Below, piece by piece: positions 16,648 to 63,912 of a stretch of DNA of 64,000 nucleotides. The translations under genes were made by a program, and so were the position numbers. The stretch lies in assembly GCA_013112585.1 (NCBI GenBank), contig JABFGH010000013.1, positions 1 through 64,000 of the forward strand. Direction: 5' to 3'. The notes under the pieces were generated by a model. It was not told the origin of the DNA. It did no database searches and worked only from the letters and a program-made list of their open reading frames with translations. The stretch is from Ignavibacteriota bacterium. Its GTDB lineage: Bacteria > Bacteroidota > Ignavibacteria > Ignavibacteriales > Melioribacteraceae. Position 1 is the stretch's first letter; the number at the start of each line of letters is the position of its first letter.

Positions 16648-17856
16648 ATGAGTCAGTTTAAAATTGCTTTCATATCATCGCTGATCACTGTTTTATGTGT
16701 ATCAATTGCATTCGCATATTTCTATACACGGAATGAAAATTTAAATATCTCTACTGAAAATATTACTGATACACGACCAATAAATTTTCAACCGGAAAAA
16801 GAAACTGAAAATAATGATGCTGAGAAACGTGAAAAGATTAGTGAAGATTTATTTGAAAGCCGCAGTAATATTATAACAAGAACTGTAAAAAATATTAGTG
16901 AAGCAGTTGTTGGCATAAATGTTAAAGAAATCCGGCAGTACCGCGATCCGATGAGTACAAACCCTTTTTGGCGGCAGTTTTTCGGCGATAGAGTTTATAA
17001 CCGCGAAGTGAGCGGATTGGGTTCGGGAGTAATTATTTCTTCAGATGGATATATAATTACCAACGACCACGTTGCCGGCAGAGCCGATAAGATTATTATA
17101 ACGATGACAAACGGCGAACACTACGATGCTAAAATTGTAGGTACCGATCTGGTCTCCGATGTTTGCCTGCTTAAAATTGAAGCTAAAAATTTACCTCATG
17201 TAAAGCTCGGAGATTCAGACGAAATTCTTATCGGAGAATGGGCAATTGCTCTCGGCAACCCTTTTGGTCTTTTTGATATTAATGATAAACCAACGGTAAC
17301 AGTTGGAGTAATTAGCAGTGTTGGAATGAACTTAGGTGAAAACAGCGGCAGGTATTATTTGGATATGATTCAAACAGATGCAGCAATTAATAGCGGCAAC
17401 AGCGGCGGTCCACTTGTAAACAGCTTTGGTGAACTAATTGGAATGAACACATTAATTTTTACAGCTCAAGGCTCAAGCGGCAGTGTGGGCGTGGGGTTTG
17501 CAATTCCCATCAATAAAGTGAAAAGGATTATTGAGGAATTAAAATCAAACGGAAAAGTAGATAGATCATTTGTTACGGGTTTGCGCGGACAAACAATTGA
17601 TGAAGGGATTGCAAATTATTATCAACTGCCGAGTGCAAGCGGGGTAATCATTACTTATGTTCAAAAAGAATCGCCATCTGAAGATGCGGGACTTGAAGAG
17701 GGTGATATAATTTTAAGTGTAGATAAATACAGGATCACAAATTTTGAAACTTTAGTTGCGGTCATAAATGAGTTTAGACCCGGTGATAAAGTTAAACTAA
17801 AAATTCAGCGCGGTGATTCCATAATTGATAAAACTTTGAAACTGGAAAAAAGATGA
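16648..17856 (+). CDS. htrA: HtrA/Deg-family periplasmic serine protease with one PDZ domain
   Basis: The 402-residue protein has an N-terminal membrane anchor (about 5-25, FISSLITVLCVSIAFAYFY) and a trypsin-like domain. The catalytic triad is His141 (ITNDHVAG), Asp171 (LVSDVCLLKI) and Ser252 (INSGNSGGPLV). One PDZ domain follows at about 305-395 (PSEDAGLEEGDIILSVD). One PDZ and a membrane anchor suggest a DegS/HtrA-like quality-control protease acting in the periplasm. Its stop overlaps the purB start by four bases (ATGA), so it is translationally coupled to an unrelated purine gene. Confidence 0.93.
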   Translation: MSQFKIAFISSLITVLCVSIAFAYFYTRNENLNISTENITDTRPINFQPEKETENNDAEKREKISEDLFESRSNIITRTVKNISEAVVGINVKEIRQYRDPMSTNPFWRQFFGDRVYNREVSGLGSGVIISSDGYIITNDHVAGRADKIIITMTNGEHYDAKIVGTDLVSDVCLLKIEAKNLPHVKLGDSDEILIGEWAIALGNPFGLFDINDKPTVTVGVISSVGMNLGENSGRYYLDMIQTDAAINSGNSGGPLVNSFGELIGMNTLIFTAQGSSGSVGVGFAIPINKVKRIIEELKSNGKVDRSFVTGLRGQTIDEGIANYYQLPSASGVIITYVQKESPSEDAGLEEGDIILSVDKYRITNFETLVAVINEFRPGDKVKLKIQRGDSIIDKTLKLEKR

Positions 17857-19151
17857 TAGAAAGATATACCCGCCCGGAAATGGGCAAAATTTGGGAAGAT
17901 GAATTCAAATATTCAACGTGGCTGCAGATTGAAATACTTGCATGCGAAGCCCGCGCTAAACTTGGTGAAATACCTGAAGGCGATGTGCAGGTAATTAGAG
18001 ACAAAGCAAAGTTTGATGTAAAAAGAATTCTAGAAATTGAAGAAACAACCAAGCACGATGTGATCGCCTTCCTTACAAACGTTGCTGAATATGTCGGTCC
18101 TGAATCAAGACATATACATTATGGAATGACTTCTTCTGATATTCTTGATACATGTCTTTCATATCAAATGAAAACGGCGGGCGAGTTATTGTTGAAAGAC
18201 ATTTACAAATTTTCTGATGTACTGAAAAAACGAGCGCTTGAACATAAGAACACGATCTGTGTTGGACGAAGTCACGGTATACACGCTGAACCCACAACAA
18301 TGGGATTAAAATTTGCTCTATGGTTTGAAGAAAACAAGCGGAATATTACACGATTAGAAAACGCGGTTAAGTCAATTAGTGTTGGACAAATATCCGGTGC
18401 GGTTGGAACGTTTGAACACTTGACCCCAAAAGTTGAAGAATATGTTTGCGAAAAAATGGGACTTTCCCCCGCCCCGGTTTCAACACAAGTAATTCAGCGG
18501 GATAGGCATGCAGAGTTTCTTTCAGCGCTTGCAATTATTGGTGCAAGTCTTGAAAAAATTGCCGTCGAAATTCGCCATCTTCAGCGGACTGAAGTTTTGG
18601 AAGCGGAAGAATATTTTTCGAAAGGACAAAAAGGTTCATCTGCAATGCCTCATAAACGCAACCCAATCGTTAGTGAGCGAATTACCGGCATTGCCCGCCT
18701 GCTCCGCTCAAACGCAATGGCTGCTTTGGAAAATGTTGCTCTATGGCATGAACGAGATATCTCACATTCATCAGTTGAAAGAGTGATAGTACCCGATAGC
18801 TGCATTATTCTTAACTATGCTTTCGGTCTAATTATTCCTTTGATCGATAATCTTTTGATCTACCCTGAAAACATGATCAAGAATTTAAACCTTACACGCG
18901 GACTAGTATTTTCTCAAACAGTATTGCTGGAACTTGTGAACAAAGGCGCAACAAGAGAAGAGGCATACAAACTAGTGCAGACTCCGGCAATGGATGTTTG
19001 GGCTGATAAAAATAAAAATTTGAAAGATGAATTATTGAATTCTGATGAAGTGAAAAAATATTTGAATGCTGAGGAAATAGAGAAAATATTTAATACTCAA
19101 AAAACACTAATTAATATTGATTATATATTTAAGAGATCGGTTGAGGGATAG
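17853..19151 (+). CDS. purB: Adenylosuccinate lyase PurB
   Basis: The 432-residue fumarase-superfamily lyase opens IERYTRPEMGKIWEDEFKYSTWLQIE. It has HYGMTSSDILDT, GRSHGIHAEPTTMGLKFALW and the flexible signature loop GSSAMPHKRNPIVSERI. It catalyses two fumarate-releasing steps of purine synthesis (SAICAR to AICAR, adenylosuccinate to AMP). The length is that of the short bacterial/Bacillus type. Its last 68 bp are duplicated with about 90% identity at 19452-19519, beyond an intergenic stretch. Confidence 0.95.
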   Translation: MIERYTRPEMGKIWEDEFKYSTWLQIEILACEARAKLGEIPEGDVQVIRDKAKFDVKRILEIEETTKHDVIAFLTNVAEYVGPESRHIHYGMTSSDILDTCLSYQMKTAGELLLKDIYKFSDVLKKRALEHKNTICVGRSHGIHAEPTTMGLKFALWFEENKRNITRLENAVKSISVGQISGAVGTFEHLTPKVEEYVCEKMGLSPAPVSTQVIQRDRHAEFLSALAIIGASLEKIAVEIRHLQRTEVLEAEEYFSKGQKGSSAMPHKRNPIVSERITGIARLLRSNAMAALENVALWHERDISHSSVERVIVPDSCIILNYAFGLIIPLIDNLLIYPENMIKNLNLTRGLVFSQTVLLELVNKGATREEAYKLVQTPAMDVWADKNKNLKDELLNSDEVKKYLNAEEIEKIFNTQKTLINIDYIFKRSVEG

Positions 19152-19451: not shown

Positions 19452-19519
19452 AAATATTCAACACACAAAAAACACTAACTAATATTGATTATTTATTTAA
19501 GAGATCGGTGGAGGCATAG
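19452..19519 (+). pseudogene. duplicated 3' end of purB
   Basis: These 68 bp match the last 68 bp of purB (19084-19151) with seven differences, including the stop codon. No start or further purB sequence precedes it. The 300 bp between the two copies hold the 64-bp double palindrome and no gene. This looks like the scar of a tandem duplication or of an insertion at the purB 3' end. Confidence 0.8.
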
Positions 19520-28359: not shown

Positions 28360-29232
28360 ATGAATAGAATAATTTTACTGTTGCTGTTTTCTTCATCCCT
28401 AATATTATCACAAGATGATCCGCTGGATTATTTCCCACATCATGTTGGCGACTTATGGCAATATCGTTCACAATTTACTGGTGAATTAGTGGGTACAAGA
28501 TACATTGATTCAATTCTTACAGACCCAATTTCAAAAGATGTTTTTATTTATTACGGACATTTTGATAATGGTGGAACAAATGATCGATATAGGATTGATT
28601 CCGTTGGAAATTTATATAATATGAATTTTAATCCCGATGGAATTCGTTATAAACTGTATGCAGAAATTGGAGATTCTTGGATACTTCGTGATGCCGATAG
28701 TGTCAATTTAGATACAGTTATCGTAAGCGTTGTGGATGTATACGATGCAACTGTTTTTGGAGTTAATACCACGGTAAAAGCTTTTCAATTTGAGCTTCAT
28801 TTCCCGGATCAACCTATTTTTTGGCTGGGAATTGATTATCTGGCAAAGGGTTTTGGTCTAATTAGATCTGAAATAGAGCCCTCGGATATTTATGTTTTAA
28901 CTGGGGCAATCATAGATAGTGTTGAGTATGGAATAATTACTTCTGTTAAGGATAGAATTGGACAGCCACAAAACTTTGAAGTAATTAAAAACTACCCAAA
29001 TCCATTTAATAATAATACGATAATTTCGTTTTCGGTTTCTAATTATAGTAATGTTAATATTACTGTGTATGATGTATTAGGCAGCGTGGTTAAAGAACTT
29101 ATAAATGAATCTAAACCAATGGGAAATTATAATTTACACTTTAATGCTGATGATTTATCCAGCGGACCATACTTTGTTGTTTTAACAACAGATTCAAAAT
29201 TATATACACATAAGATGTTATTAATTAAATAA
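28360..29232 (+). CDS. Secreted T9SS-sorted protein, partner of M6 protease (copy 1)
   Basis: The 290-residue protein has a signal peptide (MNRIILLLLFSSSLILSQ) and a mature region starting DDPLDYFPHHVGDLWQYRS. A C-terminal sorting domain follows from about residue 205 (NYPNPFNNNTIISF ... YTHKMLLIK), which directs export by type IX secretion. The central domain (about 20-195) matches no family I know, but it is clearly homologous to the product at 31838: DPLDYFPHHVGDLWQY versus DPLDFFPSSVGNVWIY. Each is followed directly by an M6-type metalloprotease. A role as inhibitor, propeptide-like partner or adhesin is speculation. Confidence 0.8.
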   Translation: MNRIILLLLFSSSLILSQDDPLDYFPHHVGDLWQYRSQFTGELVGTRYIDSILTDPISKDVFIYYGHFDNGGTNDRYRIDSVGNLYNMNFNPDGIRYKLYAEIGDSWILRDADSVNLDTVIVSVVDVYDATVFGVNTTVKAFQFELHFPDQPIFWLGIDYLAKGFGLIRSEIEPSDIYVLTGAIIDSVEYGIITSVKDRIGQPQNFEVIKNYPNPFNNNTIISFSVSNYSNVNITVYDVLGSVVKELINESKPMGNYNLHFNADDLSSGPYFVVLTTDSKLYTHKMLLIK

Positions 29233-29253
29233 TTTTAAATTGTGGAGGGCTTT

Positions 29254-31410
29254 ATGAAAATAAGAATACTACTATTTGCTGCATCTTTTATTTTTATTTG
29301 CTTAAATATTTTTGCTTCCGATTCAACCTTCTGCGGTGTGGAAGGTTATCAGCCACTAGTTCAAAAAGGGGGACTTAATGCAACTCCTTTCGGCACGCTA
29401 AAAGTTTTGTTTATTTTTATCGATTTTTCAGACGATAATATAGACAGAGATAATCCAACTTGGCCTGTCGGTAGGTATGATTCCGAGGGAAATTTTACTG
29501 GCGGTCCAAACTATCTAGATGATATTGTTGATTTAACAGAAACGCAGAATTCTGGTAAATATGCTAATGTCACAACGTTTTTTAATGATATGAGTGATGA
29601 ACAATTTAAAATGATTGGAAAGGCTTATTATGTACAAGCTCCTCAGCCATTAAGCTGGTACCAGGCGAAACATGCAGGCGCGGAGGCTGCTTACTCTGCC
29701 AAGCATGCAATTGAAGCTTTAGATGATACAGTTGATTTCGCTGATTTTGATAGATGGATAGATGGTGGACCATATACTCATCTACCTGGCACCGACACAA
29801 AATTAGATATGGTTTTTATTTGTTTTAGGCAATGGTATATATGTACACCTCCATACCAAAACTATTGCAGCAGTTTCAAAGCAGCAGGATGGTATAATGC
29901 TTCATTACCTGGTGGCAGTGTGACTGTTGATAATGGAAATAGGTTTATAGTTGGTTCTCAAGCAGTCAATGTTCTTCAAATGGTTCAATATCCACGGATG
30001 GAACATTTACTTCATGAGTTTGGACATGTTTGGGGATTAAATCATCAATACGCACCTGGATTTTGGTCATTAATGGGTCATCGATATCCAACAAATACAA
30101 GTTTTATGAATTCATTTGAAAGAGAACAATTAGGTTGGATTGCTTTTCATGACATCTCAACTTCACAAACAGCTCAATTACGCGATTTTGGAACACATTA
30201 TGAAGCATATAGAATGCATTTAGGAGGAAATGAATATTTTATCCTCGAAAATCATCAAAGAGAAAGTATTTATGATAATCCGGATGCAACAGGTGCAAAA
30301 GGTTTATATATTTTACGACAATTTCCTAATGGAAGTTATAACTATGAAGGAAATTTAAAAGTTGAGACTGCCGATGGTCGATATAATTGGGCAAATCCTA
30401 GTTGGGTACCTTTTCCAAGCAATAATATTCCGGTACCAGTTTTTGAACGCGGAGAAATTAACAGATATTTTGGGTTAACTGATAGAGATTTACAACTTGC
30501 ACAGGACCCTACTACGGGTAATTTTGATTGGCATTACCTCATTACTAAAATTGATGAATCAACTGGAGAAATTGTTTATGGTTCTTTTTATAGAGGAGAT
30601 GGAGAAGATGCATTTGGCTTAAACAATAATGAGGTTTTCACACCTTGGAGTAATCCGGCAGCATGCTTAAATTCTGGCGTACCTTCAAATGTAGGTATTG
30701 AGATACTCCCAAATTCAACAGAAATACTTCAAATAAATTATTTTATAGGTAATCCAATAAATGCTTCACCCTCCAAACCTCACCTCGGATGGGAACCAAG
30801 GGATTTGGGTTATCCATTTGAGGAAGGCTGGGTTTATCTTGCCTGGGGCGCAGATTTGTGGGATGGTTATCCGATTGAACCAGATGTAAACTGGTCAGAG
30901 CTGCACAGGAAAATTGGCAATGGTTCCTGGACTACTGTTTATTCTGGTCCAAATCGCCAATGGTATAGCGGTGATAGTAATTATGATCCCGATGGTGATA
31001 CACCCGTTTACTTTAGAGTAAGGGTTCGTGATACTCAAAATAAATGGTCACTCTGGTCAAATATTTTCGACACAAGAATGAGTGTTACACAGTCGGGTGT
31101 TGGTTTAGATAAATCCGCATCGAAAAATAATTCAAAAAAGATACCTGCGGACTATGCTATTTCACCAAACTACCCAAATCCTTTTAATCCAGAGACAATA
31201 ATAAAATACCAAATTCCTGAAAGTGGCTTGGTTCAACTTAAAATTTACGATTTGTTAGGAAGGGATGTGGCAACGCTGGTGAATGAGGTGAAATCAGCAG
31301 GATCATATTCTATTAACTTTGACGCGAGCGATTTACCAAGTGGAGTTTATATATATTCCTTGAAGGTTAATGATTTTGTTCAAAACCAGAAAATGACTTT
31401 GCTGAAATAG
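29254..31410 (+). CDS. Secreted M6-type metalloprotease with T9SS sorting domain (copy 1)
   Basis: I chose ATG 29254 (718 residues) because GGAGGG lies 4 bp upstream; an in-frame GTG at 29242 overlaps that Shine-Dalgarno. A signal peptide (KIRILLFAASFIFICLNIFA) is followed by an M6-like domain. Its zinc motif is HEFGHVWGLNH, a full HExxHxxGxxH, with the first His at residue 254. Next come the Met-turn-like segment SLMGHRYP and FEREQLGWI. A fibronectin-like region (about 500-615) and a type IX sorting domain (about 630-718, NYPNPFNPETII...) complete it. M6 enzymes such as immune inhibitor A are extracellular endopeptidases. The last 216 bp are 98-99% identical to those of the 32738 paralogue. 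Confidence 0.88.
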   Translation: MKIRILLFAASFIFICLNIFASDSTFCGVEGYQPLVQKGGLNATPFGTLKVLFIFIDFSDDNIDRDNPTWPVGRYDSEGNFTGGPNYLDDIVDLTETQNSGKYANVTTFFNDMSDEQFKMIGKAYYVQAPQPLSWYQAKHAGAEAAYSAKHAIEALDDTVDFADFDRWIDGGPYTHLPGTDTKLDMVFICFRQWYICTPPYQNYCSSFKAAGWYNASLPGGSVTVDNGNRFIVGSQAVNVLQMVQYPRMEHLLHEFGHVWGLNHQYAPGFWSLMGHRYPTNTSFMNSFEREQLGWIAFHDISTSQTAQLRDFGTHYEAYRMHLGGNEYFILENHQRESIYDNPDATGAKGLYILRQFPNGSYNYEGNLKVETADGRYNWANPSWVPFPSNNIPVPVFERGEINRYFGLTDRDLQLAQDPTTGNFDWHYLITKIDESTGEIVYGSFYRGDGEDAFGLNNNEVFTPWSNPAACLNSGVPSNVGIEILPNSTEILQINYFIGNPINASPSKPHLGWEPRDLGYPFEEGWVYLAWGADLWDGYPIEPDVNWSELHRKIGNGSWTTVYSGPNRQWYSGDSNYDPDGDTPVYFRVRVRDTQNKWSLWSNIFDTRMSVTQSGVGLDKSASKNNSKKIPADYAISPNYPNPFNPETIIKYQIPESGLVQLKIYDLLGRDVATLVNEVKSAGSYSINFDASDLPSGVYIYSLKVNDFVQNQKMTLLK

Positions 31411-31455
31411 AACCAAATGCGGTGAAGAACTCACTCATTTATTTTTTGTAAAAAA

Positions 31456-31472
31456 GGGAGCTTTAAGCTCCC
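31456..31472 (+). terminator. terminator after M6 protease copy 1
   Basis: GGGAGC-TTTAA-GCTCCC is followed by seven T residues, the same stem-loop as after groEL. It lies 46 bp after the stop. Confidence 0.9.
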
Positions 31473-31837
31473 TTTTTTTATATCAGATTTGATAGTTATC
31501 ATTAAAATTTACTCGTTTTCTTTAGAAATTAGCCTAAAAAGTTAAGATTTAGATTATAAAAATTATTTAATAAAAAATTCAAAAATCCGTAATCATACTG
31601 ATTTTTGTTTAAATATTTTTTTGTATGATAAAGAAGTTAAATAAAGGGAATAAAGGATTACAACAATTTTAGACATAACGGTTCTATTATTTATTAACTT
31701 TTTATTTATAAGTATTTCCCCTATCCTCTGTGGTAAATACTTAAATAATAGTCTATTAAATTTAGATGAATTTTATTCGGGTTTTATATGATTTGACAAA
31801 AACAGACAATAATAATTTAAATTTTGGAGATTTAGAA
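31473..31837. other. AT-rich intergenic region before the second T9SS module
   Basis: There is no gene or repeat of the window's families here. An in-frame ATG at 31766 would extend the next protein by 24 residues, but they do not look like a signal peptide. The region is most likely the promoter and leader of the second module. Confidence 0.5.
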
Positions 31838-32710
31838 ATGAAAGCAATAAATGTTTTTGCCGCAATAATATATTTATTTATTACCAATTATTCTTATTCG
31901 CAAGAGTTCGATCCACTCGACTTTTTCCCTTCATCTGTTGGTAATGTTTGGATATATGAAACCCCGTCTGACATAGTCAGATATGAAATTATCAAAGACT
32001 CTGTTGACCAATATGGTAACAAATTCATCTTCTATTATCTTGAACAGCCAACATATCAAATGGACACAATGAATAATGTATATTTTGTCCCTTATAGTTT
32101 AAATTGGTTAAAGTATAAGTTAGATGCAGATTCAGGCGATACTTGGCAAGTTCGACCGGAAGGCACCAGTGTTAGAAGAAGAGAAGCACTAGTTACAAAT
32201 AAATACCATACAACTGCTTTTGGCATCCCATCAGAAATATTGGAAATAGAATATTGGAATTTGGACTATGGTGATACTGTAATTAATGAATTTGCTATTT
32301 ATGAAAATACAGAAATACTTGCCGCAGGATTCGGACTATTATATGATTATACCGCACACGGACCGGTATATACAATAAGAGGCTGCATAATTGAACAGGA
32401 TACATTTGGTATTGTTACTACGGTAGAAGAAGACCTCCAGTTACCCGATGACTTTGCACTTTATCAAAATTACCCCAATCCATTCAATCCAACTACAACA
32501 ATAAAATTTCAATTGTCAAATTATGCTTTTGTTGAACTAAGAGTATTTGATTTATTGGGGAGAGAAGTTTCTGTTCTTATTAAAGTAGAAAAACCCGCTG
32601 GAATATATGAATTAAAATTCCATGGGAATGATCTTACAAGCGGCACTTATATTTATACGCTAAAAACTGGTAACAGTATTTTATCAAAAAAAATGCTTTT
32701 AATCAAATAA
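31838..32710 (+). CDS. Secreted T9SS-sorted protein, partner of M6 protease (copy 2)
   Basis: ATG 31838 (290 residues) has GGAG 8 bp upstream and gives a proper signal peptide (MKAINVFAAIIYLFITNYSYSQ). The mature start EFDPLDFFPSSVGNVWIYE and the segment AAGFGLLYDYTAHGPVYTIRGCII match the 28360 protein (KGFGLIRSEIEPSDIYVLTGAII). A sorting domain starts near residue 212 (NYPNPFNPTTTIKFQL ... LSKKMLLIK). This gene and the next one duplicate the preceding two-gene module. The two small proteins have diverged strongly while keeping the same length, 290 residues each. The function is unknown. Confidence 0.8.
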   Translation: MKAINVFAAIIYLFITNYSYSQEFDPLDFFPSSVGNVWIYETPSDIVRYEIIKDSVDQYGNKFIFYYLEQPTYQMDTMNNVYFVPYSLNWLKYKLDADSGDTWQVRPEGTSVRRREALVTNKYHTTAFGIPSEILEIEYWNLDYGDTVINEFAIYENTEILAAGFGLLYDYTAHGPVYTIRGCIIEQDTFGIVTTVEEDLQLPDDFALYQNYPNPFNPTTTIKFQLSNYAFVELRVFDLLGREVSVLIKVEKPAGIYELKFHGNDLTSGTYIYTLKTGNSILSKKMLLIK

Positions 32711-32737
32711 CTATGAAAAACAAAAAAAGAGGGAAAA

Positions 32738-34909
32738 GTGAAAATTCTAAATTCAAAAATATTAATTATTTATTTTTTATTTTTACATATCGTTTCGGCA
32801 CAAATAGAACTAATTGAAGAACCAAATTGTGTAGAAGGATATAACCCAGAGGTTTATACTAACCAGATTGGTGGCTATGCACTTCCTTCTGAAGGAACAA
32901 TTAATGCACTAATAGTTTTTGTCCAATTTCCCGATGATAATTATGATCAAAAGAATCCTTACTGGAAAAAAGGGTATGCACCTGCAAACATGAATTATTG
33001 GGTTAATGAAACCTGGAGCAGTAATCCAATTCAAGGCTCACTGACTCATTATTTCAATGAGATGTCTTTCAACAAACTAAAATTTATAGGAAAAACTGTT
33101 TCTGTCATCACACCTAATAGCAGACAATGGTATTTAACAAATTCAAAGGATCGAGGTTATATTCACAAAGAGGTAATCCAACAACTGGATAATACATGGG
33201 ATTTTGCTGAGTTTGACAAATGGGATCTTATTTCAGCCTATAACCATACAGATGATCGAACTGATGGAGTTATAGAGATGATTATTATGGTCTGGAGAAA
33301 TGTCGCTAAGGAATTTCCCGAACCACAACAAAACAATATATACACGGCACTGGATTTTCACCCGGTTTACAGCTATGGTAGTCTTGGTGGAAGTGAGTTT
33401 CAAGTTGATGGTGGTGCTAGAACCGTTAAAACAGGTTTCAGTCCAAGTGGAAGCACACCTGGCGGTTCTGGTGTAACAATAAATGATCACTTAATAAATC
33501 AAGGTTTAACAATTACAATTCACGAATTTGCTCACTACTTAATGGGGGGTAATTCTTACCATACGGGCCATGGCTTTTGGGGCATGCTGGATGCCTGGGG
33601 TAAAAAAAGCAAGGTCGCTAATTCTTTCGAACGATACCGCCTGGGTTGGATAAATGTGAACGATATTGAAAATACACCGAATCAAGTAATATCTAACGCC
33701 ACCATTTCGGATTATGTAACAACCGGAATAGTATATCGGTTTAAAGTTGATCCGACATCAAATGAATACTTTTATATCGAGAATCATCAAAAACTTTCCT
33801 ATTGGGAAACTCATCTAACACCTGGAAATATTGAAAATGGGATATATGTTTTAAGACAGAAAGGAACTCTGGGGAAAGATGTTCAGATCATTCCAGCAGA
33901 TGGAAGATTTGATTGGGTTGTAAATCAAATTACACCTAATCCATGGGGTAGTGGGAATTTACCGGTATATAAAAATAACGGTGCTGATAGGGTGAATGGA
34001 TATCATGATTTGCAAACTATCCCGTGGGTTTGGAACGGTATTAATCAAGCAGCTCAAGTAATTCATTTTACAGAAAATGAAAGCGGGCAGCCGGTTCTCG
34101 ATGTTAGATATCCTGGTGATGGACGTGATGCATTTAGAGAAGGATTTAATGAAATATTTACTCCTTATAGTAATCCAAACTCACACAGGTTCAATAGGAC
34201 AGCAACACCCTTTGGATTCAAAATCAATAGTCTAGTAGGTGGAGTGTACTCACTTGATATTTATGTTAATACGTCACTTAATGCTCAGCCATCAAAACCA
34301 CAAAATCTAAAAGTGACTATTGAAAATAACACGCCAAGATTAAACTGGGCAGCAAATATTGAACCCGATGTTGTCAGCGGAGGCAAATACAAAGTTTACA
34401 GAACAACTACATCCGGTGGTGAACCTACTAGCTATAGCCACGTGGCTACCGTGAATCACCCAGCAACAACTTGGCTTGATTATAACTATTATGTTTATGG
34501 CGGTGGAGACAGTAAATTGTTTTATACGGTTTCTGCTGTAGACAGTGATAACATGGAGTCTGTAAAATCTGATTACGATTGGCTATGGTGGGATAATGAA
34601 CTTCAGAAGAATGGGGACCAATCAACTTTCGATAATAACATCATCACAGATTATAGACTTTTCTCAAACTACCCAAACCCGTTTAATCCGGAAACAATAA
34701 TAAAATACCAAATTCCTGAAAGTGGCTTGGTTCAACTTAAAATTTACGATTTGTTAGGAAGGGATGTGGCAACGCTGGTGAATGAGGTGAAATCAGCAGG
34801 ATCATATTCTATTAACTTTGACGCGAGCGATTTACCAAGTGGAGTTTATATATACTCCTTGAGGGTTAATGATTATGTTCAAAACCAGAAAATGACTTTG
34901 CTGAAATAG
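32738..34909 (+). CDS. Secreted M6-type metalloprotease with T9SS sorting domain (copy 2)
   Basis: The gene starts at GTG 32738, with AGAGGG upstream, and encodes 723 residues. The signal peptide is MKILNSKILIIYFLFLHIVSAQ. The zinc motif at residues 262-266 is HEFAH, but the third histidine of the usual HExxHxxGxxH is displaced (HEFAHYLMGGNSYHTGH). This suggests an inserted loop or a different third ligand. FERYRLGWI and VFTPYSNP-like segments match the first copy. A fibronectin-like section (about 520-620) precedes the type IX sorting domain (about 645-723). Terminator 34953 follows. It is predicted to be an extracellular protease. Confidence 0.87.
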   Translation: MKILNSKILIIYFLFLHIVSAQIELIEEPNCVEGYNPEVYTNQIGGYALPSEGTINALIVFVQFPDDNYDQKNPYWKKGYAPANMNYWVNETWSSNPIQGSLTHYFNEMSFNKLKFIGKTVSVITPNSRQWYLTNSKDRGYIHKEVIQQLDNTWDFAEFDKWDLISAYNHTDDRTDGVIEMIIMVWRNVAKEFPEPQQNNIYTALDFHPVYSYGSLGGSEFQVDGGARTVKTGFSPSGSTPGGSGVTINDHLINQGLTITIHEFAHYLMGGNSYHTGHGFWGMLDAWGKKSKVANSFERYRLGWINVNDIENTPNQVISNATISDYVTTGIVYRFKVDPTSNEYFYIENHQKLSYWETHLTPGNIENGIYVLRQKGTLGKDVQIIPADGRFDWVVNQITPNPWGSGNLPVYKNNGADRVNGYHDLQTIPWVWNGINQAAQVIHFTENESGQPVLDVRYPGDGRDAFREGFNEIFTPYSNPNSHRFNRTATPFGFKINSLVGGVYSLDIYVNTSLNAQPSKPQNLKVTIENNTPRLNWAANIEPDVVSGGKYKVYRTTTSGGEPTSYSHVATVNHPATTWLDYNYYVYGGGDSKLFYTVSAVDSDNMESVKSDYDWLWWDNELQKNGDQSTFDNNIITDYRLFSNYPNPFNPETIIKYQIPESGLVQLKIYDLLGRDVATLVNEVKSAGSYSINFDASDLPSGVYIYSLRVNDYVQNQKMTLLK

Positions 34910-34952
34910 TGCCAAATGCTGTAATGAATTCACTTATTTTGTTATAAAAAAA

Positions 34953-34969
34953 GGGAGCTTTCGGCTCCC
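34953..34969 (+). terminator. terminator after M6 protease copy 2
   Basis: GGGAGC-TTTCG-GCTCCC with flanking A- and T-runs, 43 bp after the stop. The loop differs from the other two copies of this stem. Confidence 0.9.
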
Positions 34970-35048
34970 TTTTTTTTGTTCAATCATTCATTCAATAATA
35001 CCGGTTTAACTTACCCGGCTTCCGCAGGAATGATTAGAACTGCTTATT

Positions 35049-40953: not shown

Positions 40954-41061
40954 CGTAGGGAGAGAATTTCTAATCTGAGATTTTGCAAAACCTCTTTGCA
41001 TCACCGCTTCCAAAGGAATCCCTTTGGGAAAATCCCGTAGTGTCCCCCGATTAAGACGTTT
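40954..41061. other. intergenic stretch with a small hairpin
   Basis: It contains CCAAAGG-AATC-CCTTTGG (41010-41027) and no gene. Together with 41313-41499 it forms the remainder of the 624-bp gap around a MITE-like element; 41313-41499 shows nothing recognisable. Confidence 0.5.
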
Positions 41062-41312
41062 AACCCGAATTATGCAATAGAGAAAATTGCACGGTGCTTC
41101 AGCGCCGTGAATCCTGCCCGTCCGGCAGGCGGGATTGAACAAACATAAATATTGGGTTTTAACCCAAATGGTTGTGGGCCTGCCCACCGGCAAAGGCGGG
41201 CTAAAGCCCCTTACATAATTTTAAGATCAATCACCGTCATAAATGACGGTGCAATTACAAATACAATTTTTTTTTAGATCTTACAAACTATTTCTAATGC
41301 ATAATTCGGGTT
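41062..41312. mobile_element. MITE-like element with terminal inverted repeats, copy 1
   Basis: The element is bounded by perfect 15-bp inverted ends (AACCCGAATTATGCA ... TGCATAATTCGGGTT), with similarity extending to about 20 bp. Inside are several hairpins: CACGGTGC-TTCA-GCGCCGTG, the 21-bp CCTGCC...GGCGGG palindrome (41113-41133), TTGGGTTTTAACCCAA, and CACCGTCA-TAAA-TGACGGTG near the right end. It has no coding capacity. A copy at 49361-49630 is about 95% identical outside one insertion. No clear target duplication is visible. Confidence 0.8.
41113..41133. repeat. 21-bp REP-like palindrome in MITE copy 1
   Basis: CCTGCCCGTC followed by CGGCAGGCGGG, the core 21-bp unit of the window's GC-rich palindrome family. 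It is identical at 49412-49432 and in reverse complement at 49541-49561. Confidence 0.85.
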
Positions 41313-43891: not shown

Positions 43892-45613
43892 ATGGCAGAG
43901 AAAGAATTAGATCGAAAAATATTAGCCCCCGATGGAATGATTGTGATCAATAAAGATCATAAAATTATTGTATTTAATGAAGCAGCATGCAGAATAACCG
44001 GATTAAGTGAAAACGAAGTAATCTCAAAAAATAGCAGCTTTTTATTTGATGATTCAACTGATAAAAATTCCATTATCAGTCAAGCACTCGCTTCAGCCGA
44101 AATTATTTCGAATATTTCGTTATTGATAAATTGCCAAAGCGGTAAAAAACTTACCGTAACTGCCTCAATTACACCGGTTGAACAGCCATCTCAGGGAACC
44201 ATAGGGATTATTTTGGTTTTTAGAGACACACAAGAAACATTATTTTTATACAATGCTTTAGATGAAAAAAACAAAGAAATATTAGAAGAAAAAAATAAAC
44301 TTGAAACGATTTTTAATAGTCTGCTTGAAGGCACATTTACAATAAATACCGAGTGGGAGATAACTTCTTTCAATCAATCTGCCGAAAGCATAACCGGCTA
44401 TTCCGTTGCCGAGGCAATAGGCAAAAAGTATTGGAAAGTTTTCCCTTCTGAAGAGGGAAATGAAGACCCGCAGCTTAAGGCATTTATTGCAGAACATCAG
44501 AAGGAACTTTTACGAGAGACAAACATTATACGTAAGGATGGGAGCAGAACTTTAGTTAGAATTAACTCTGCCCCGCTTATGAATACTGCCGGTGAAAAAA
44601 TTGGTCGTGTTGTAACTTTTGAAGATATCAGTCTTATGAAAAATCTTTCCGATCATATTGAGGAGAGGTTTCATTTCAAAAATATAATCGGCAGAAGCAA
44701 AGCCATGCTTAAAGTTTTTGATATGATGGAAAATGTAATTACCACTGACAGCACGGTGTTAGTAACCGGTCAAAGCGGAACCGGAAAAGAAATTATTGCA
44801 CGTGCTATTCATTTAAATAGTGAAAGAAAAACCGAACCGTTTATTGCGGTGAACTGTACTTCGTTTGCCGAAACACTTTTGGAAAGCGAACTTTTTGGAC
44901 ATGAGAAAGGTGCTTTTACCGGAGCAATAAAATCGAAACCGGGGAGGTTTGAACTTGCCGGTAACGGTACATTATTTTTAGATGAAGTAGGAGATATCCC
45001 TTTGCCTATTCAAGTAAAGCTGCTTAGGGTTATTGAAAACAGACAGTTTGAAAGAGTTGGAGGAACTAAAAGTTTAAATCTTAATGCACGCATTATTTGT
45101 GCTACCCATAGAAATTTAGAAACTGAAATTGAACAAGGAAATTTTAGAGAAGATTTATATTACAGAATAAATGTAATTAATATTCATCTGCCCCCTTTGT
45201 ACGAACGGAAGGATGATATTCCAACTTTAGTAAATTATTTCATACAAAAGTTCAATACAAAATTTAATAAGGAAATTAACCATATTTCATCAGATGCTCT
45301 TAAAGTTATAACTCATTACAAATGGCCCGGCAACATACGCGAATTAGAAAATGTAATTGAACACGCTTTTGTAGTCTGCAGAGATGAAACTATTGAAACC
45401 GAACATTTACCGGAAAAATTGCAGAATTTATTCGAAAGATTAGTCAACAATAATGTAAGCAGTAATACTAAGTCCTTGCTCGAGCTTGCAGAGAAACAAA
45501 TTGTTGAAGAAACACTTGAAAGATTTAATGGGAACAGGACTGAAACAGCGGATGCTCTCGGTATTGAAAAGACAACTCTTTGGCGTAAGATGAAAAAGTT
45601 TAAGCTGCTTTAA
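43892..45613 (+). CDS. PAS-PAS sigma-54-dependent transcriptional activator
   Basis: The 573-residue protein has two PAS domains (about 15-115 and 145-255), a sigma-54 AAA+ domain and a Fis-type helix-turn-helix at the C terminus (NRTETADALGIEKTTLWRKMKKF). The AAA+ domain has Walker A GQSGTGKE at 293-300, the sigma-54 contact loop GAFTGA at 340-345 and LFLDEVGDIPL as Walker B. It has no receiver domain, so it should sense a ligand or redox state through the PAS domains rather than phosphorylation. It lies next to operators 3 and 4 and is the obvious candidate to bind the ATTGCA-N4-TGCAAT pairs here and at 37026-37071; autoregulation is likely. It does not look like NtrC or NifA. Confidence 0.93.
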   Translation: MAEKELDRKILAPDGMIVINKDHKIIVFNEAACRITGLSENEVISKNSSFLFDDSTDKNSIISQALASAEIISNISLLINCQSGKKLTVTASITPVEQPSQGTIGIILVFRDTQETLFLYNALDEKNKEILEEKNKLETIFNSLLEGTFTINTEWEITSFNQSAESITGYSVAEAIGKKYWKVFPSEEGNEDPQLKAFIAEHQKELLRETNIIRKDGSRTLVRINSAPLMNTAGEKIGRVVTFEDISLMKNLSDHIEERFHFKNIIGRSKAMLKVFDMMENVITTDSTVLVTGQSGTGKEIIARAIHLNSERKTEPFIAVNCTSFAETLLESELFGHEKGAFTGAIKSKPGRFELAGNGTLFLDEVGDIPLPIQVKLLRVIENRQFERVGGTKSLNLNARIICATHRNLETEIEQGNFREDLYYRINVINIHLPPLYERKDDIPTLVNYFIQKFNTKFNKEINHISSDALKVITHYKWPGNIRELENVIEHAFVVCRDETIETEHLPEKLQNLFERLVNNNVSSNTKSLLELAEKQIVEETLERFNGNRTETADALGIEKTTLWRKMKKFKLL

Positions 45614-45751: not shown

Positions 45752-46435
45752 ATGAATAAAACTACCGGCGATACTAACACCTTTACATGGGTCAAAGCTA
45801 TTATTCTAATAATAATGTTTGTTGGTTTGTTGATTTCAATTTATGAAAGAATTTGGTTTAATGTTTTTCTCGTATCTCTATTACTGCTCTTAACTCTAAC
45901 GCCAACAATTCTTTACAAAAGGTACAAATTTGTTATTCCGCCGGAAATTGAAATAATCGCCATTATATTCATTTTTGCATCAGGTTATTTGGGCGATATT
46001 AGAGAATATTATGATAAATATTGGTGGTGGGATAAAGTACTTCATTTCAGCTCGGGAATTCTATTAGGAATAGTAGGTTTTTTAATTGTTTATATACTTA
46101 ATAAAATTAAACGATTTATGATTTATATGAAGCCCGCCTTTGTTGCATTGTTTTCATTTACATTTGCCGTTTCAATTGGAGCCATTTGGGAAATTTATGA
46201 ATTTGCAATGGATAAATTTTTTGACCTGGGAATGCAATCTCACAAGCTTTATTCGGATTTGGAAGATACAATGTGGGATATTATTCTTGATACTTTAGGG
46301 GCAGCAATTATTTCAATTTTAGGTTACTTTTATATGTCTAGAAACAAGGAATTTTTTATTAACGATTTACTAACAAACTTTATTGAGCATAATCCGAAAC
46401 TATTCAAGAAAAGAAAATCTAAACCTTCAACTTAA
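45752..46435 (+). CDS. DUF2238-type polytopic membrane protein
   Basis: The 227-residue protein has about six transmembrane segments. Conserved polar motifs lie near membrane boundaries: YWWWDKVLHFSSGILLGIVGF, GAIWEIYEFAMDKFFDLGMQ and DTMWDIILDTLGAAIISILGY. They resemble the DUF2238 membrane family, whose function is not established. A long basic tail ends the protein. It lies 138 bp after the activator gene; no operator or sigma-54 site was found in front of it. Confidence 0.75.
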   Translation: MNKTTGDTNTFTWVKAIILIIMFVGLLISIYERIWFNVFLVSLLLLLTLTPTILYKRYKFVIPPEIEIIAIIFIFASGYLGDIREYYDKYWWWDKVLHFSSGILLGIVGFLIVYILNKIKRFMIYMKPAFVALFSFTFAVSIGAIWEIYEFAMDKFFDLGMQSHKLYSDLEDTMWDIILDTLGAAIISILGYFYMSRNKEFFINDLLTNFIEHNPKLFKKRKSKPST

Positions 46436-46579
46436 TCTTAATTCCGCATTAAACTCTTTTTTTAATTAAGTCACTATTATTCTTTTACTTTTCAAAATCT
46501 CTAATGTTGTAAGTAAGGGCTGCGCGGCAAATATTTTTCCTTTTCCTTCAAATAAATTTCGTCACTTTATTTTATTTCT

Positions 46580-46597
46580 TTGGCACTCAATTTGTGT
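46580..46597 (+). promoter_or_regulatory. degenerate sigma-54-like promoter of NifX-like gene
   Basis: TTGGCACTCAATTTGTGT has a full -24 element (TTGGCAC) and TTTGT instead of TTTGC at -12, correctly spaced. The expected start near 46606 is 16 nt before ATG 46622. No ATTGCA-N4-TGCAAT pair was found upstream. Confidence 0.45.
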
Positions 46598-46621
46598 AAG
46601 GAGTTAGAAAAAGAGAAAAAA

Positions 46622-46957
46622 ATGAAAATTGCAATATGTATATCGGAAAGAGATAATGTGAAAGAAATTTCAAATTCTCTAAGCAGTGCCGATTATTATG
46701 TAATTATAGATTCTTCTGCCGGAGTACCGCCGGACAAAATTTATAATTCACACTCAAATGAAAATTTGGGTGCCGAAATATTTTGCTCGCAATTATTAAT
46801 TAGTAGTGGAATTAACAAAGTTGTTTGCCGTGATTGCGAACCGGATGCAGAAAGACTTTTTAAAGATGCAAAGATAGAAGTAGAGAAAAACTATAAACCC
46901 TATTTAAATATACTATCGTCTAAAATAACTGATAAAACTAAATCATTAATTCAATAA
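46622..46957 (+). CDS. NifX/dinitrogenase FeMo-cofactor-domain protein
   Basis: ATG 46622 gives 111 residues beginning MKIAICISERDNVKEISNSLSSADYYVIID, followed by GAEIFCSQLLISSGINKVVCRDCEPDAERLFKDAKIEV. This is the fold of the NifX/NifB-C-terminal/NafY family that binds iron-sulfur or FeMo-cofactor precursors. The usual glycine-rich G-x-G segment is changed to CRDCEPDA, with a CxxC-like pair that could hold a metal. No nitrogenase gene is in the window, so its role is more likely general metal or redox handling. Upstream in-frame codons to 46580 overlap the putative promoter. Confidence 0.72.
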   Translation: MKIAICISERDNVKEISNSLSSADYYVIIDSSAGVPPDKIYNSHSNENLGAEIFCSQLLISSGINKVVCRDCEPDAERLFKDAKIEVEKNYKPYLNILSSKITDKTKSLIQ

Positions 46958-46962
46958 GCAGA

Positions 46963-47298
46963 ATGTTTCTAACTTACCACCTCTTTAATATGGAAAAAAA
47001 GGTGGAGAGGAAGGTGGTGATTGACATCTTAAATCAGGCGTATTTATTATTACAAAACTATCTAAATCCGTTTAACCCCAGCACTATAATTAATTATCAA
47101 ATAAAAGAAAAGGGATTTGTTACTTTAAAAGTTTATGATATGCTTGGAAAAGAAGTTGCTACATTAGTAAATAATACGCAAGAATCTGGCAGATATTCTG
47201 TTGAATTGAACGCTAATGAATTACCCAGTGGAGTTTATATATATTCACTGACAGTTAATGATTTTGTTCAAAACACCAAGATGACCTTGTTGAAATAA
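46963..47298 (+). pseudogene. orphan T9SS C-terminal sorting domain fragment
   Basis: The frame encodes 111 residues, of which about 80 (from LQNYLNPFNPSTIINYQ to NTKMTLLK) are a type IX sorting domain, while the first 30 are neither a signal peptide nor a known domain. The sorting motif reads YLNPFNP instead of YPNPFNP. Without a signal sequence and passenger it cannot be a normal secreted protein. It is probably the 3' remnant of a lost secreted-protein gene. Its last third resembles the 31410 and 34909 genes at DNA level. Confidence 0.7.
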
Positions 47299-47310
47299 AA
47301 ATATTAATTA

Positions 47311-47339
47311 TCCGGAACGGGCAAGCGCTTGTTCCGGAT
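47311..47339 (+). terminator. hairpin between the CTD remnant and LamG lipoprotein gene
   Basis: TCCGGAAC and GTTCCGGA enclose a 13-base loop, followed by TTCTTT. This is compatible with termination of the upstream unit. Confidence 0.65.
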
Positions 47340-47364
47340 TCTTTAAAAATACAAAGGGAATAAT

Positions 47365-48174
47365 ATGAAATTAACTTTTTTATTTGCACCAAAGAGATAC
47401 ATAAAAACCATAATTTGTGGTTTACTTTTTGTCCTTATTTTTGGCTGCGATAATGGAGTCGAAATTGACAAAGTAGAAGAACCAAAAAATTATATAGAAT
47501 ATGGTAAAGTTATTACTGATGATCTTATAGCATACTATCCTTTTGATGGAAGTGCTATGGATTATAGCGAAAATGAATTACATGGTATTGAAAACGGAGT
47601 TGAAGCGACAGCAGGCAGGTTTAACCAAGCTAATGGCGCTTTAAGTTTTGACGGAGTAGATGATTTTATTGAAATACCGCAATTTTCGGAGATAAACAAT
47701 TCTAGTGGAACAATTTGTTTTTGGGCGCGAATTCCATCAGGCATTCAACGGGACAATGATGCAGCAGTTATTTCCAGAATAGATACGGTTGGAGAGGGTT
47801 TTACAATCAGTATACATGGAACATCATATTATTGGTTTGAATATAGGACAGTTTTTGGTTCTGAGAGTGGTGCGAATATGCATACATATTATTGGGAAGA
47901 TAATGAATATCTGTTTATTGCTGTAACCTTTAGTAAAGGCATTGATACAACAAGCACTACTTTTACATATTATTTTCAGGGTCATCCTACAATTGAGGTC
48001 AAAAATACGGCTATGGATCAGAATTTTACTTTTAACGATAGCAGTATGCCTTTGTTTATAGGTAAAAGTTTAATACCAAGATATTCTTATTTAAAAGGTG
48101 AATTAGACGATTTGTTAGTTTACGATCGCGCATTAAGTGATGGTGAAATATTAGAATTATTTAGTTGGGAATAA
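47365..48174 (+). CDS. LamG/concanavalin-like lipoprotein
   Basis: The 269-residue protein has a lipoprotein signal (TIICGLLFVLIFGC, cysteine near residue 28). A single LamG/concanavalin A-like domain of the Laminin_G_3 type spans about 50-265: LIAYYPFDGSAMDYSENELHG, ALSFDGVDDFIEIPQF, ICFWARIPSG and the C-terminal GELDDLLVYDRALSDGEILELF. Such domains bind carbohydrates or proteins at the cell surface. AAGGGA precedes the ATG. There is no T9SS domain, so it should stay anchored in a membrane. Confidence 0.87.
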   Translation: MKLTFLFAPKRYIKTIICGLLFVLIFGCDNGVEIDKVEEPKNYIEYGKVITDDLIAYYPFDGSAMDYSENELHGIENGVEATAGRFNQANGALSFDGVDDFIEIPQFSEINNSSGTICFWARIPSGIQRDNDAAVISRIDTVGEGFTISIHGTSYYWFEYRTVFGSESGANMHTYYWEDNEYLFIAVTFSKGIDTTSTTFTYYFQGHPTIEVKNTAMDQNFTFNDSSMPLFIGKSLIPRYSYLKGELDDLLVYDRALSDGEILELFSWE

Positions 48175-48363
48175 TTTTCAAATAAAACAAGAAACACATA
48201 ATAAGCCAATCAACCGGATACCGTTTTCAAAGCGGCATTTGTGTAGTTCTTTAGTTTTATGAAATAAATATACATCGCTGTTCGGCAGTAGTAATAAAAA
48301 CTAAATTGCAGCAAATAATACTTGCAATAAAAGTTAAGCATTGTTTGCATAAACTTTGGTTTA

Positions 48364-49209
48364 TTATAACCCGATAAGTACTGGTCTTTTTGCTGCTTTT
48401 ATCAAATGCTTTGTTAAGCTGCCAACAAAGAAATTTGTTAAACTTTTTTTCGAATGCGCTCCGACAACAACAATATCAGCCCAGTCTAAATATTTTGCTT
48501 CAACTTCATCAATAATATCTTTAGTTGTCCATTCTTTTTTAATTTCAGATATTGAATGAGCATTTAGATATTCAGCTGCCCGATCCAAATGAAACTCGGC
48601 AGTATCTTTATTTTTATCTGACATTAAAATTTTAACTTCGGCTTTAACGATTGAAAGGTGAGCGAAATGATGTAGTGCTCTCGCTGCCGGTAGAGAACCA
48701 TTATAAGGAATTAAAACTTTTAATTTTTTTTCTAACCTCTTTGAAAAAGAATATTCTTTGGGCACGGCAAAAATTGGCGTGATAGAATAATCCAATATCT
48801 TATCTAATGTATCGCCCGATTCATCTGAAGTAGCAAATTGAAAATACGTCCGCATACCCATAATCATTGTATCATAATAGATTGACTCAGAAATAATCTG
48901 CTCACTTGGCGTGCCCTCATGTTTTGATTTAGAGTATTTAACACCTTCCAATTCACATTTTTCTCTAAACATTGAAAGTAGTAAATCCTTCCTCTCTTTA
49001 GCTTCTTTCTCCTTAAAATTCCGCTCCTTTTCGGCATAACGGTATGCGCCTATTGGAACAGGTCCTGTTGATTTTCTGATACCGGGTACATCTAACACAA
49101 CTATACCTGTAAGTTCTGCATCGTTAATTCTTGCAATAACGCAAGCCATATCGAGAGCGGCTGTTGTATAAGGTGATGGGTCAAGAGGAATTAAGATTCG
49201 TTTAATCAT
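48364..49209 (-). CDS. Universal stress protein, tandem UspA domains
   Basis: The 281-residue protein has two UspA folds. The first (about 1-150) starts IKRILIPLDPSPYTTAALDMA but has a modified nucleotide site (MIMGMRTYFQFATSDESGDTL). The second (about 160-281) starts KVLIPYNGSLPAARALHHFA and keeps the ATP-binding motif VVGAHSKKSLTNFFVGSLTKHLI with the G-x2-H and VGS pattern. Two-domain Usps are stress or energy-state proteins. No sigma-54 site or operator is visible before it. A MITE-like element lies 150 bp upstream. Confidence 0.9.
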   Translation of the reverse strand: MIKRILIPLDPSPYTTAALDMACVIARINDAELTGIVVLDVPGIRKSTGPVPIGAYRYAEKERNFKEKEAKERKDLLLSMFREKCELEGVKYSKSKHEGTPSEQIISESIYYDTMIMGMRTYFQFATSDESGDTLDKILDYSITPIFAVPKEYSFSKRLEKKLKVLIPYNGSLPAARALHHFAHLSIVKAEVKILMSDKNKDTAEFHLDRAAEYLNAHSISEIKKEWTTKDIIDEVEAKYLDWADIVVVGAHSKKSLTNFFVGSLTKHLIKAAKRPVLIGL

Positions 49210-49360
49210 TTTATTTCACCAATTAGTTAATATATATTCTGCACTTATTTTATGAATGATAAATTATATAGAAAGCTAAAAATTATTAAAACTTTAACTT
49301 ACGGATAGCAATATAACAAATTGCAAAATTATATTTTACGGGATTAGGAAACATAAATTA
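49210..49360. other. intergenic region between Usp gene and MITE
   Basis: An AT-rich 151 bp that probably holds the Usp promoter on the minus strand. Nothing else is recognised. Confidence 0.4.
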
Positions 49361-49411
49361 AACCCGAATTATGCAATAGAGATAATAGCACGGTGCTTCA
49401 GCGCCGTGAAT

Positions 49412-49432
49412 CCTGCCCGTCCGGCAGGCGGG
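49412..49432. repeat. 21-bp REP-like palindrome in MITE copy 2
   Basis: Identical to 41113-41133, at the homologous place of the element. Confidence 0.85.
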
Positions 49433-49540
49433 ATTGAACAAACATAAATATTGGGTTTTAACCCAAATGGTTTTGGGCCTGCCTGCCGGCAAAGGCGGGC
49501 TAAAGCCCCTTACATAATTTTAATATCAATCACCGTCATA

Positions 49541-49561
49541 CCCGCCTGCCGGACGGGCAGG
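49541..49561. repeat. 21-bp REP-like palindrome inserted in a hairpin loop
   Basis: This is the exact reverse complement of the unit at 49412-49432. It is missing from the otherwise matching copy 1, where the loop is uninterrupted, so it marks a recent gain or loss of a single palindrome. Confidence 0.88.
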
Positions 49562-49746
49562 AATGACGGTGCAATTAAAAAGACAATCTTTATTTAGACT
49601 TTATAAATTATTTCTAATGCATAATTCAGGATGAAGTAATTCGAAATAATAAAATGTTCAGGGCTAAATTGAATTACATCCACAATTATCATGAGATAAT
49701 TAGGGTTGATACTTCATAGGGTGGAGAGGAAATAGTTTAATTTAAT

Positions 49747-49770
49747 CTGTCGAGGAATGGTCCTCGACAG
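49747..49770 (-). terminator. hairpin downstream of the UDP-xylose synthase gene
   Basis: CTGTCGAGGA-ATGG-TCCTCGACAG has a perfect 10-bp stem, 7 bp after the stop on the minus strand. The following DNA is AT-rich without a clear T-run. The 116 bp between it and the MITE hold nothing recognised. Confidence 0.65.
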
Positions 49771-49777
49771 CTAAGAA

Positions 49778-50725: not shown

Positions 50726-50726
50726 A

Positions 50727-51875: not shown

Positions 51876-51876
51876 T

Positions 51877-63814: not shown

Positions 63815-63912
63815 CCATGCAGCAATGCAACCATTCAGCCATGCAGCCATGCAGTCATGCAATCATGCAATCATTCATCCATGCATCCATGCAATCATGC
63901 AGCCTTGCAGCC
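63815..63912. repeat. CCATGCAG/CCATGCAA short-unit array
   Basis: About ten degenerate 8-10 bp units (CCATGCAG, TCATGCAA, TCATTCAT) in tandem. They are the same units seen at 430-460, 1435-1485, 2515-2550, 10910-10950 and 15540-15565. Units are too short and variable for a CRISPR array. Confidence 0.75.

Follow-up and report, generated by a model that had tools for sequence, protein, structure and literature searches.

Near-identical sorting domains in two diverged neighbouring putative protease genes of an Ignavibacteriota bacterium: probable gene conversion, and DUF1670 elements at sorting-domain stop codons

The KLIKK proteases of Tannerella forsythia belong to different catalytic classes. 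They are encoded by six genes in two clusters, and their authors suggest that protease genes were fused to shared terminal sequences (PMC4404884). In Porphyromonas gingivalis, gingipains and adhesins are described as undergoing domain rearrangement and allelic exchange (PMC5266723). Here we analyzed a stretch of 64,000 nucleotides from an Ignavibacteriota bacterium (contig JABFGH010000013.1, positions 1 to 64,000 of the forward strand), called the window below, to whose first letter the positions refer. It contains two related neighbouring genes of putative metalloproteases, W1 and W2, which carry the same type A sorting domain of the type IX secretion system (T9SS) and whose last 216 bp are nearly identical (Table 1).

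Compared with the published description of the KLIKK genes, the window pair consists of two related proteases with a sharply bounded tract of silent-site identity. The likeness to P. gingivalis lies in recombination between T9SS cargo genes, and gene conversion is named there as a route of variation (PMC5266723). There, however, adhesin modules and catalytic domains vary between strains, whereas in the window the sorting domain of two neighbours appears to be homogenised within one genome. Conversion between neighbours is an ordinary process with close precedents.

A first-pass annotation had described the two 216-bp segments as differing at three bases up to the stop, in genes otherwise strongly diverged, with related downstream flanks and terminators, and all of this was borne out. 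Direct base comparison located the mismatches at 31356 (T/C), 31364 (A/G) and 31376 (T/A), and the longest exact run between the copies was 161 bp (31195-31355). Protein identity between W1 and W2 was 36% overall and 28.6% when the last 85 residues were left out. The downstream flanks were 79.3% identical over 92 aligned bases, showing that homology continues past the stop, and each contained a terminator-like repeat, read from the sequence as GGGAGC..GCTCCC. The near-identical segment is thus bordered by diverged homologous sequence. In the 27 bases (nine codons) just upstream of the tract, the protein is conserved and four third-position differences occur, at offsets 11, 14, 23 and 26. Because of these differences, the upstream edge of the tract is sharp and real.

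Synonymous divergence (dS) inside and outside the segment, a comparison proposed on first pass, was obtained by Nei-Gojobori count. Over 71 codons of the tract dS was 0.022, with 1.0 change in 45.8 synonymous sites. Over 598 codons of the body dS was about 2.05 and the proportion of synonymous differences was 0.70, which means saturation. Silent sites that are near-identical inside and saturated outside, together with the unlike domains in homologs of W2 described below, support the first-pass suggestion of recent gene conversion, and we consider that the tails of W1 and W2 were very probably homogenised by such an event between adjacent paralogs. The last 216 bp of two old tandem paralogs would have been made identical by non-reciprocal homologous recombination, presumably of the RecA type, acting across direct repeats in neighbouring copies 3.5 kb apart; the 3.3 kb between the copies is present. 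Two rounds may have taken place, the earlier of which probably copied the domain and the 3' flank together, because the flanks are still 79% alike.

We then compared the tract with the other sorting domains of the same genome (G000), a draft assembly of 4.94 Mb in 77 contigs. A DNA search with the segment returned 11 matches: two at 99-100%, followed by 75%, 72% and 69%, the remaining ones lying at 68-73% and mostly over shorter stretches. The first-pass annotation had proposed to count near-identical copies, and had held that near-identity of all sorting domains in the genome would indicate selection on the sequence and not conversion. Contrary to that condition, only the two window copies were near-identical, the next match was at 75%, and the other domains were diverged.

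Profile search indicated at least 150 sorting domains in this genome (150 scored among 241 candidates). From the stretches around the profile matches, 152 sorting-domain gene ends were recovered by motif and all 11,476 pairs were compared. Five pairs reached a DNA identity of 89% or more: one on contig C6 (98.1%, 270 bp), the window pair (97.1%, 243 bp), and pairs on C3 (92.6%), C24 (91.7%) and C2 (89.0%). All five consist of same-strand neighbours 1.7-6.5 kb apart, against a background of only 64 pairs among the 11,476 lying within 7 kb on one strand. The C6 pair provides a second tract confined to the domain, with a dS of 2.6 in the body. In the C3 and C2 pairs, the similar tract comprises the domain and about 300-360 bp upstream of it. 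In the C24 pair (46289-52967, L098) the identity extends over much of the body but leaves out the domain: seven 40-codon windows have no silent change, followed by up to 0.47 changes per silent site in the domain.

These placements qualify the first-pass proposal that the T9SS domain is copied as a module. That proposal describes the domain-confined tracts of the window and C6, but fails for C3 and C2, whose tracts overrun the domain, and for C24. A dedicated system for copying sorting domains was ruled out by the same three pairs. As the tracts of other pairs overrun or exclude the domain, the process is, on the placement of these tracts, patchy conversion between neighbours and not domain-specific copying. 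The window pair cleanly illustrates how likeness is maintained among some of the T9SS sorting domains, at least 150 in number, of one bacterium, through a process that follows gene neighbourhood and not the domain. The neighbouring paralogs of C24 form a mirror image of the window pair, with bodies alike at silent sites and a diverged sorting domain.

Homologs in other genera were used to examine the history of both genes. Six W2 homologs from five genera (two in G007 and one each in G034, G056, G001 and G043) were 40-48% identical to W2 in the body and 48-60% in the domain at the amino acid level, so that the W2 body is nearer to these homologs than to its neighbour W1 (28.6%). More distant homologs had body identities of 26-30%. 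A further close homolog, in G030, was left uncounted because its apparent domain turned out to be part of an adjacent frame. The closest W1 homolog, in G046, showed 37% identity and carried a window-type domain (67.5%), with one stop inside the match. Since this W1 homolog carries the window-type domain and the W2 homologs do not, W1 is weakly hinted to be the donor and W2 the recipient. A tree built from 45 domain rows placed W1 and W2 as sisters with support of 100/97.

Several observations weigh against gene conversion or its direction from W1 to W2. The relatives compared belong to other genera, with no sibling strain among them. The direction is drawn from a single W1 homolog with an internal stop (G046), and the closest outside domain (77.5%) is found in a G010 protease that is 28% identical to W1 and 30% to W2. 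The domain tree has few columns, and its forks are otherwise mostly open. In addition, contig ends of the assembly show overlaps of 127 bases, and the exact run of 161 bp is longer than these. This last point and the draft state of the genome in 77 contigs would fit an assembly artefact, in which one tail was miscopied into the other gene by the assembler. It is a very improbable explanation, because two direct copies on one contig with four unique sides leave, by reasoning, a single linear path, three mismatches and different 3' flanks distinguish the copies, and four other pairs have differently placed tracts.

Recent whole-gene duplication and chance similarity were ruled out by the silent-site contrast and the genome-wide comparison. 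The dS contrast between tract and body also led us to reject selection at the protein level. Purifying selection acting on the domain, as DNA or as protein, would agree with its function as a secretion signal and with a protein motif conserved across the family, but the silent sites are near-identical as well, and the other sorting domains of the genome do not exceed 75% DNA identity to the tract; this explanation is in effect refuted and its probability is close to nil. Import of a sorting-domain cassette into both genes from a third source, by horizontal transfer or from a lost donor, deserves somewhat more weight. The same domain type, VNDFVQNxKMTLLK, is present in other genera (77.5% amino acid identity in G010, 67.5% in G046), and related domains exist elsewhere in the genome, on C7 and C15 and in the orphan frame of the window. 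However, no third copy above 75% DNA identity is present in the genome, and the finding that all of the top five domain pairs are neighbours is unexpected under two independent imports. We therefore consider such import improbable and gene conversion between W1 and W2 the best explanation.

Several contigs of the same genome end 127 bases into a shared sequence that starts at the end of a sorting-domain gene. Dispersed near-identical domains were ruled out as the cause of these contig ends because the shared part starts at the stop codon. A search with a junction pattern gave 15 rows representing 14 different sites, of which 13 lie at contig ends, and a reversed control gave none in this genome. 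The pattern contained AAATAR and thus favours that junction, while carrying no bias towards sorting domains. All 14 sites were at stops of sorting-domain genes; nine of these genes were among the TIGR04183 profile matches and the other five scored 26.6-36.9 bits (cut-off 23). The shared sequences fall into element types A, B and C (Table 1), present as near-identical copies at different sites of one genome, and the last 60 bases are common within each type. In this genome the elements were assigned from their first 127 bases and the opening codons of their reading frames; a DUF1670 search of this genome found none, and the element interiors are presumably absent from the assembly. On the minus strand of C34, the sorting domain at 44913-45140 (L080) is followed by its stop, then by the type B palindrome TATCAAATGATA and then by other sequence, which is probably a short remnant of an element.

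Fuller copies of the element in relatives contained two adjacent genes of the Pfam family DUF1670; the two genes of G014 matched it with E 1e-45 and 1.5e-44. DUF1670 matches were found in 10 of 58 relatives, and their flanks were inspected in G001, G014, G017, G035 and G040. The junction pattern matched in 23 of the 58 relatives, some of them by chance, as the reversed control also matched in some. When 18 loci of relatives were inspected by eye, 12 were at sorting-domain ends, one was unclear (L220) and five were not (L222, L223, L226, L227 and L228).

A scan of named genomes gave 30 loci spanning Ignavibacteria, Bacteroidetes, Cloacimonadota, Neomarinimicrobiota, Zixiibacteriota, KSB1, Delongbacteria, Chloroflexi and others. 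Of these, 25 showed a left junction (L261, L267 and L278-L280 showed none), and L257 and L272 were without context. A sorting-domain gene ended at 18 of the 23 loci with context. An in-frame motif identified 11 of these and a profile score over the cut-off four more (L252, L260, L266 and L269), while three were assigned on weaker evidence, namely L253 (44 residues, 20.5 bits, below the cut-off) and, called by eye, L254 (26 residues) and L255 (frame-shifted). The other five were L258, L265, L271 and the Chloroflexi loci L275 and L276. Two of these, L258 and L265, are at DNA look-alikes of the sorting-domain motif, which suggests that DNA is recognised. These counts are not fully independent, as some loci are the same records as genomes above (for example L251 and G017) and L268 and L269 are 94% alike.

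The right end was sought in 15 loci and matched the expected form in 14; L274 failed the pattern, and by eye reads TAACAGT/AAATAA (slash, junction). The 14 complete copies are 1,721-1,857 bp long, begin with ATAR, end with GT and have AA on both sides. The left AAATAR helped to locate most junctions, and the right AA was independent of the search; these features amount to defined ends with a target-site duplication. Removal of the element leaves a lysine codon and a stop in 12 of the 14, the exceptions being L258 and L265, which are outside sorting-domain genes; the background of the lysine-plus-stop hexamer in these loci is 0.4% of positions. Because this codon and stop are left upon removal, the element, as its junctions read, completes the lysine codon, brings its own stop and shifts the original stop to its far side. 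The consensus over 34 sites, 14 in this genome and 20 elsewhere, is AARAARATGNTNYTNNTNAA/ATAR. At L270 the left junction has CG instead of AA. Taken on its own, the existence of a class of DUF1670 elements targeting the ends of sorting-domain genes is strongly supported, and leaves little doubt.

Some arrangements were more complex. A type B end stands directly beyond the far side of the element in L256 and L268. L268 and L269 were considered as a pair of sites, one filled by element type B and the other empty, which was ruled out since their right flanks do not match. These two loci, from two Marinimicrobia genomes, share the element and about 68 bp of the preceding sorting-domain end (L269:2989-3056 and L268:631-699, 94%), and in L269 a further complete sorting domain precedes the shared element and domain tail. 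The tail may have moved along with the element in these loci.

The DUF1670 proteins gave PF07900 (DUF1670) as their best profile match, and none of the NCBIfam transposase models was matched over its cut-off. Weak matches to transposase models fell in the helix-turn-helix part (IS630, E 0.022; an IS256 variant, E 0.035; phrog_1157, E 0.033/0.055), as did a weak similarity to IS21-type transposases. AlphaFold2 models of the two proteins, with mean predicted local distance difference test scores of 75.9 and 77.5 and predicted template modelling scores of 0.52 and 0.44, consisted of helices, a beta hairpin and further helices, and helix-turn-helix domains were recognised by both profile and fold comparisons. 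With either model, no Foldseek match had an E value as low as 0.001; among the weak rows for the second protein were the IstA transposase (E 0.6) and the gamma-delta resolvase (E 1.0). A second fold comparison, made with the model of the second protein, gave Z values up to 6.2, mostly in helix-turn-helix regions, and Tn3 resolvase was among its rows (Z 4.9, residues 213-260). No match over a catalytic core was established in the fold comparisons, a result compatible with the presence of one. Plasmid and phage collections contained no detected relative of the second DUF1670 protein.

Among described mobile elements, the IS1202 family, which targets dif/pdif sites, resembles the DUF1670 elements (and not the conversion) in being short and mobile and in having a fixed target on the chromosome. 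IS1202-family elements of Acinetobacter are reported to have one large transposase with a modelled RNaseH/DDE fold and produce 5-bp duplications (PMC10132070). Unlike these, the DUF1670 elements have two proteins, palindromic ends and AA flanks, and are located at sorting-domain stop codons. Insertion sequences in repetitive extragenic palindromic (REP) sequences are similar in that a dispersed, repeated genomic motif is the target, but that target is an extragenic palindrome (PMC1525189), whereas the DUF1670 target is the coding end of a protein family. The available portions of the literature on comparable insertion sequences contained nothing describing a sorting-domain stop codon as target, and a literature search found no paper naming DUF1670. 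DUF1670 mobile elements at sorting-domain stop codons are apparently undescribed so far. If the interpretation is true, an element that addresses the coding end of a protein family, brings its own stop and does not alter the host protein would represent a new way for transposons to avoid damage to their host, and DUF1670, a Pfam family of unknown function, would gain a testable role as a transposition protein that has no recognised catalytic domain. The elements also break draft assemblies at T9SS genes, accounting for 13 contig ends here by left junctions alone.

The stops of W1 and W2 themselves are followed by bases resembling an element end. The nine bases after the W2 stop equal element type C and the match at W1 extends over fewer bases, and neither a full palindrome nor a right end was identified at the window stops. 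Of the 142 sorting-domain genes free of elements, three had CAAATG at +3, namely W1, W2 and a gene on C34, compared with 0.07 expected from other offsets. Since W1 and W2 are not independent, the cases were counted as two, with a chance probability of 0.002; the test was made post hoc, after the motif had been noticed. We regard these short relics as suggestive, and it is about an even question whether an element once sat there.

This raised the possibility that the conversion was triggered by a DUF1670 element, with insertion or loss of the element breaking the DNA at the stop, the neighbouring paralog serving as template for repair, and the tract running upstream. Such repair would account for a tract boundary at the stop even though homology continues into the flank (79%), and it would be in line with the stops of sorting-domain genes being the element target and with the in-register, element-like end at both window stops. 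However, there is no element body in the window, the evidence from the motif is post hoc and comes from two non-independent genes, the C6 pair has the same kind of domain-confined tract with no element-like motif after its stops, and excision of the element is an assumed step. We consider this trigger unlikely, and a causal link from element to conversion is suggested only. In a wider reading, sorting-domain ends would be the dedicated landing site of a transposon class with paired DUF1670 proteins and no recognisable transposase, and breaks arising there as elements arrive and leave would be repaired from neighbours and so homogenise the domains, with the window pair and its two relics as one product; the causal step is the uncertain one and makes this reading as a whole unlikely. 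The evidence for gene conversion between W1 and W2 stands without any link to DUF1670.

Both genes passed the curated cut-offs of the sorting-domain profiles, scoring 42.4 (W1) and 41.1 bits (W2) with TIGR04183 (cut-off 23) and 36.8 and 36.0 with PF18962 (cut-off 27). For the M6 domain profile TIGR03296, W1 scored 38 bits, below the cut-off of 110.8, and W2 was not among the matches listed. Judged by HExxH motifs read by eye, the bodies look like zinc metalloproteases. The start of W1 is more likely the ATG at 29254 than the GTG at 29242. A smaller gene with a sorting domain precedes each protease gene, and the two share 34% amino acid identity. Because these partner genes are also related, the locus has the appearance of an old tandem duplication in which a unit of two genes was copied.

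Table 1. Coordinates of features in the window and element sites in its genome
Feature	Location	Strand	Remarks
Near-identical tract, copy 1	31195..31410	+	72 sorting-domain codons including stop TAG; 213/216 bases equal to copy 2
Near-identical tract, copy 2	34694..34909	+	partner of copy 1 by base comparison
Sorting-domain start of gene 1 (NYPNPFNPE)	31168..31194	+	homologous to 34667-34693; outside the tract
Gene 1 (W1), secreted putative metalloprotease with type A T9SS sorting domain	29242..31410	+	motif HEFGHVWGLNH
Gene 2 (W2), related putative metalloprotease, same sorting domain	32738..34909	+	motif HEFAH
3' flank of W1	31411..31480	+	terminator-like inverted repeat; about 79% like W2 flank
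3' flank of W2	34910..34975	+	terminator-like inverted repeat
Possible DUF1670-element end relic, W1	31411..31419	+	AACCAAATG; CAAATG at element register +3 after stop
Possible DUF1670-element end relic, W2	34910..34918	+	TGCCAAATG; nine bases after stop equal to element type C
Partner gene upstream of W1, 290 amino acids, T9SS sorting domain	28360..29232	+	profile matches
Partner gene upstream of W2, 314 amino acids, T9SS sorting domain	31766..32710	+	profile matches
Orphan sorting-domain frame, 111 amino acids, no protease body	46963..47298	+	VNDFVQNxKMTLLK type; 72% DNA identity to tract
Element sites in the window's genome	contig ends C2, C3, C6, C9, C12, C15, C17 (both), C21, C33, C36, C37, C38; internal C3:43794		
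Element type A			CGACAAATGTCG; always TAA; 4 left ends at different genes
Element type B			TATCAAATGATA; always TAG; 6 left ends at different genes
Element type C			TGCCAAATGACC; always TAG; 3 left ends at different genes

Other repeats were observed in the window. A 183-bp repeat, 96% identical, is present at 41059-41241 and 49358-49540, 8.3 kb apart. The last 68 bp (19084-19151) of the frame 17853-19151 are repeated with 90% identity 368 bp downstream, at 19452-19519. Short CATTCAATCATGCAG-like repeats are found both at 1-2630 and at 63831-63903, and the left contig end has 122-bp tandem copies.

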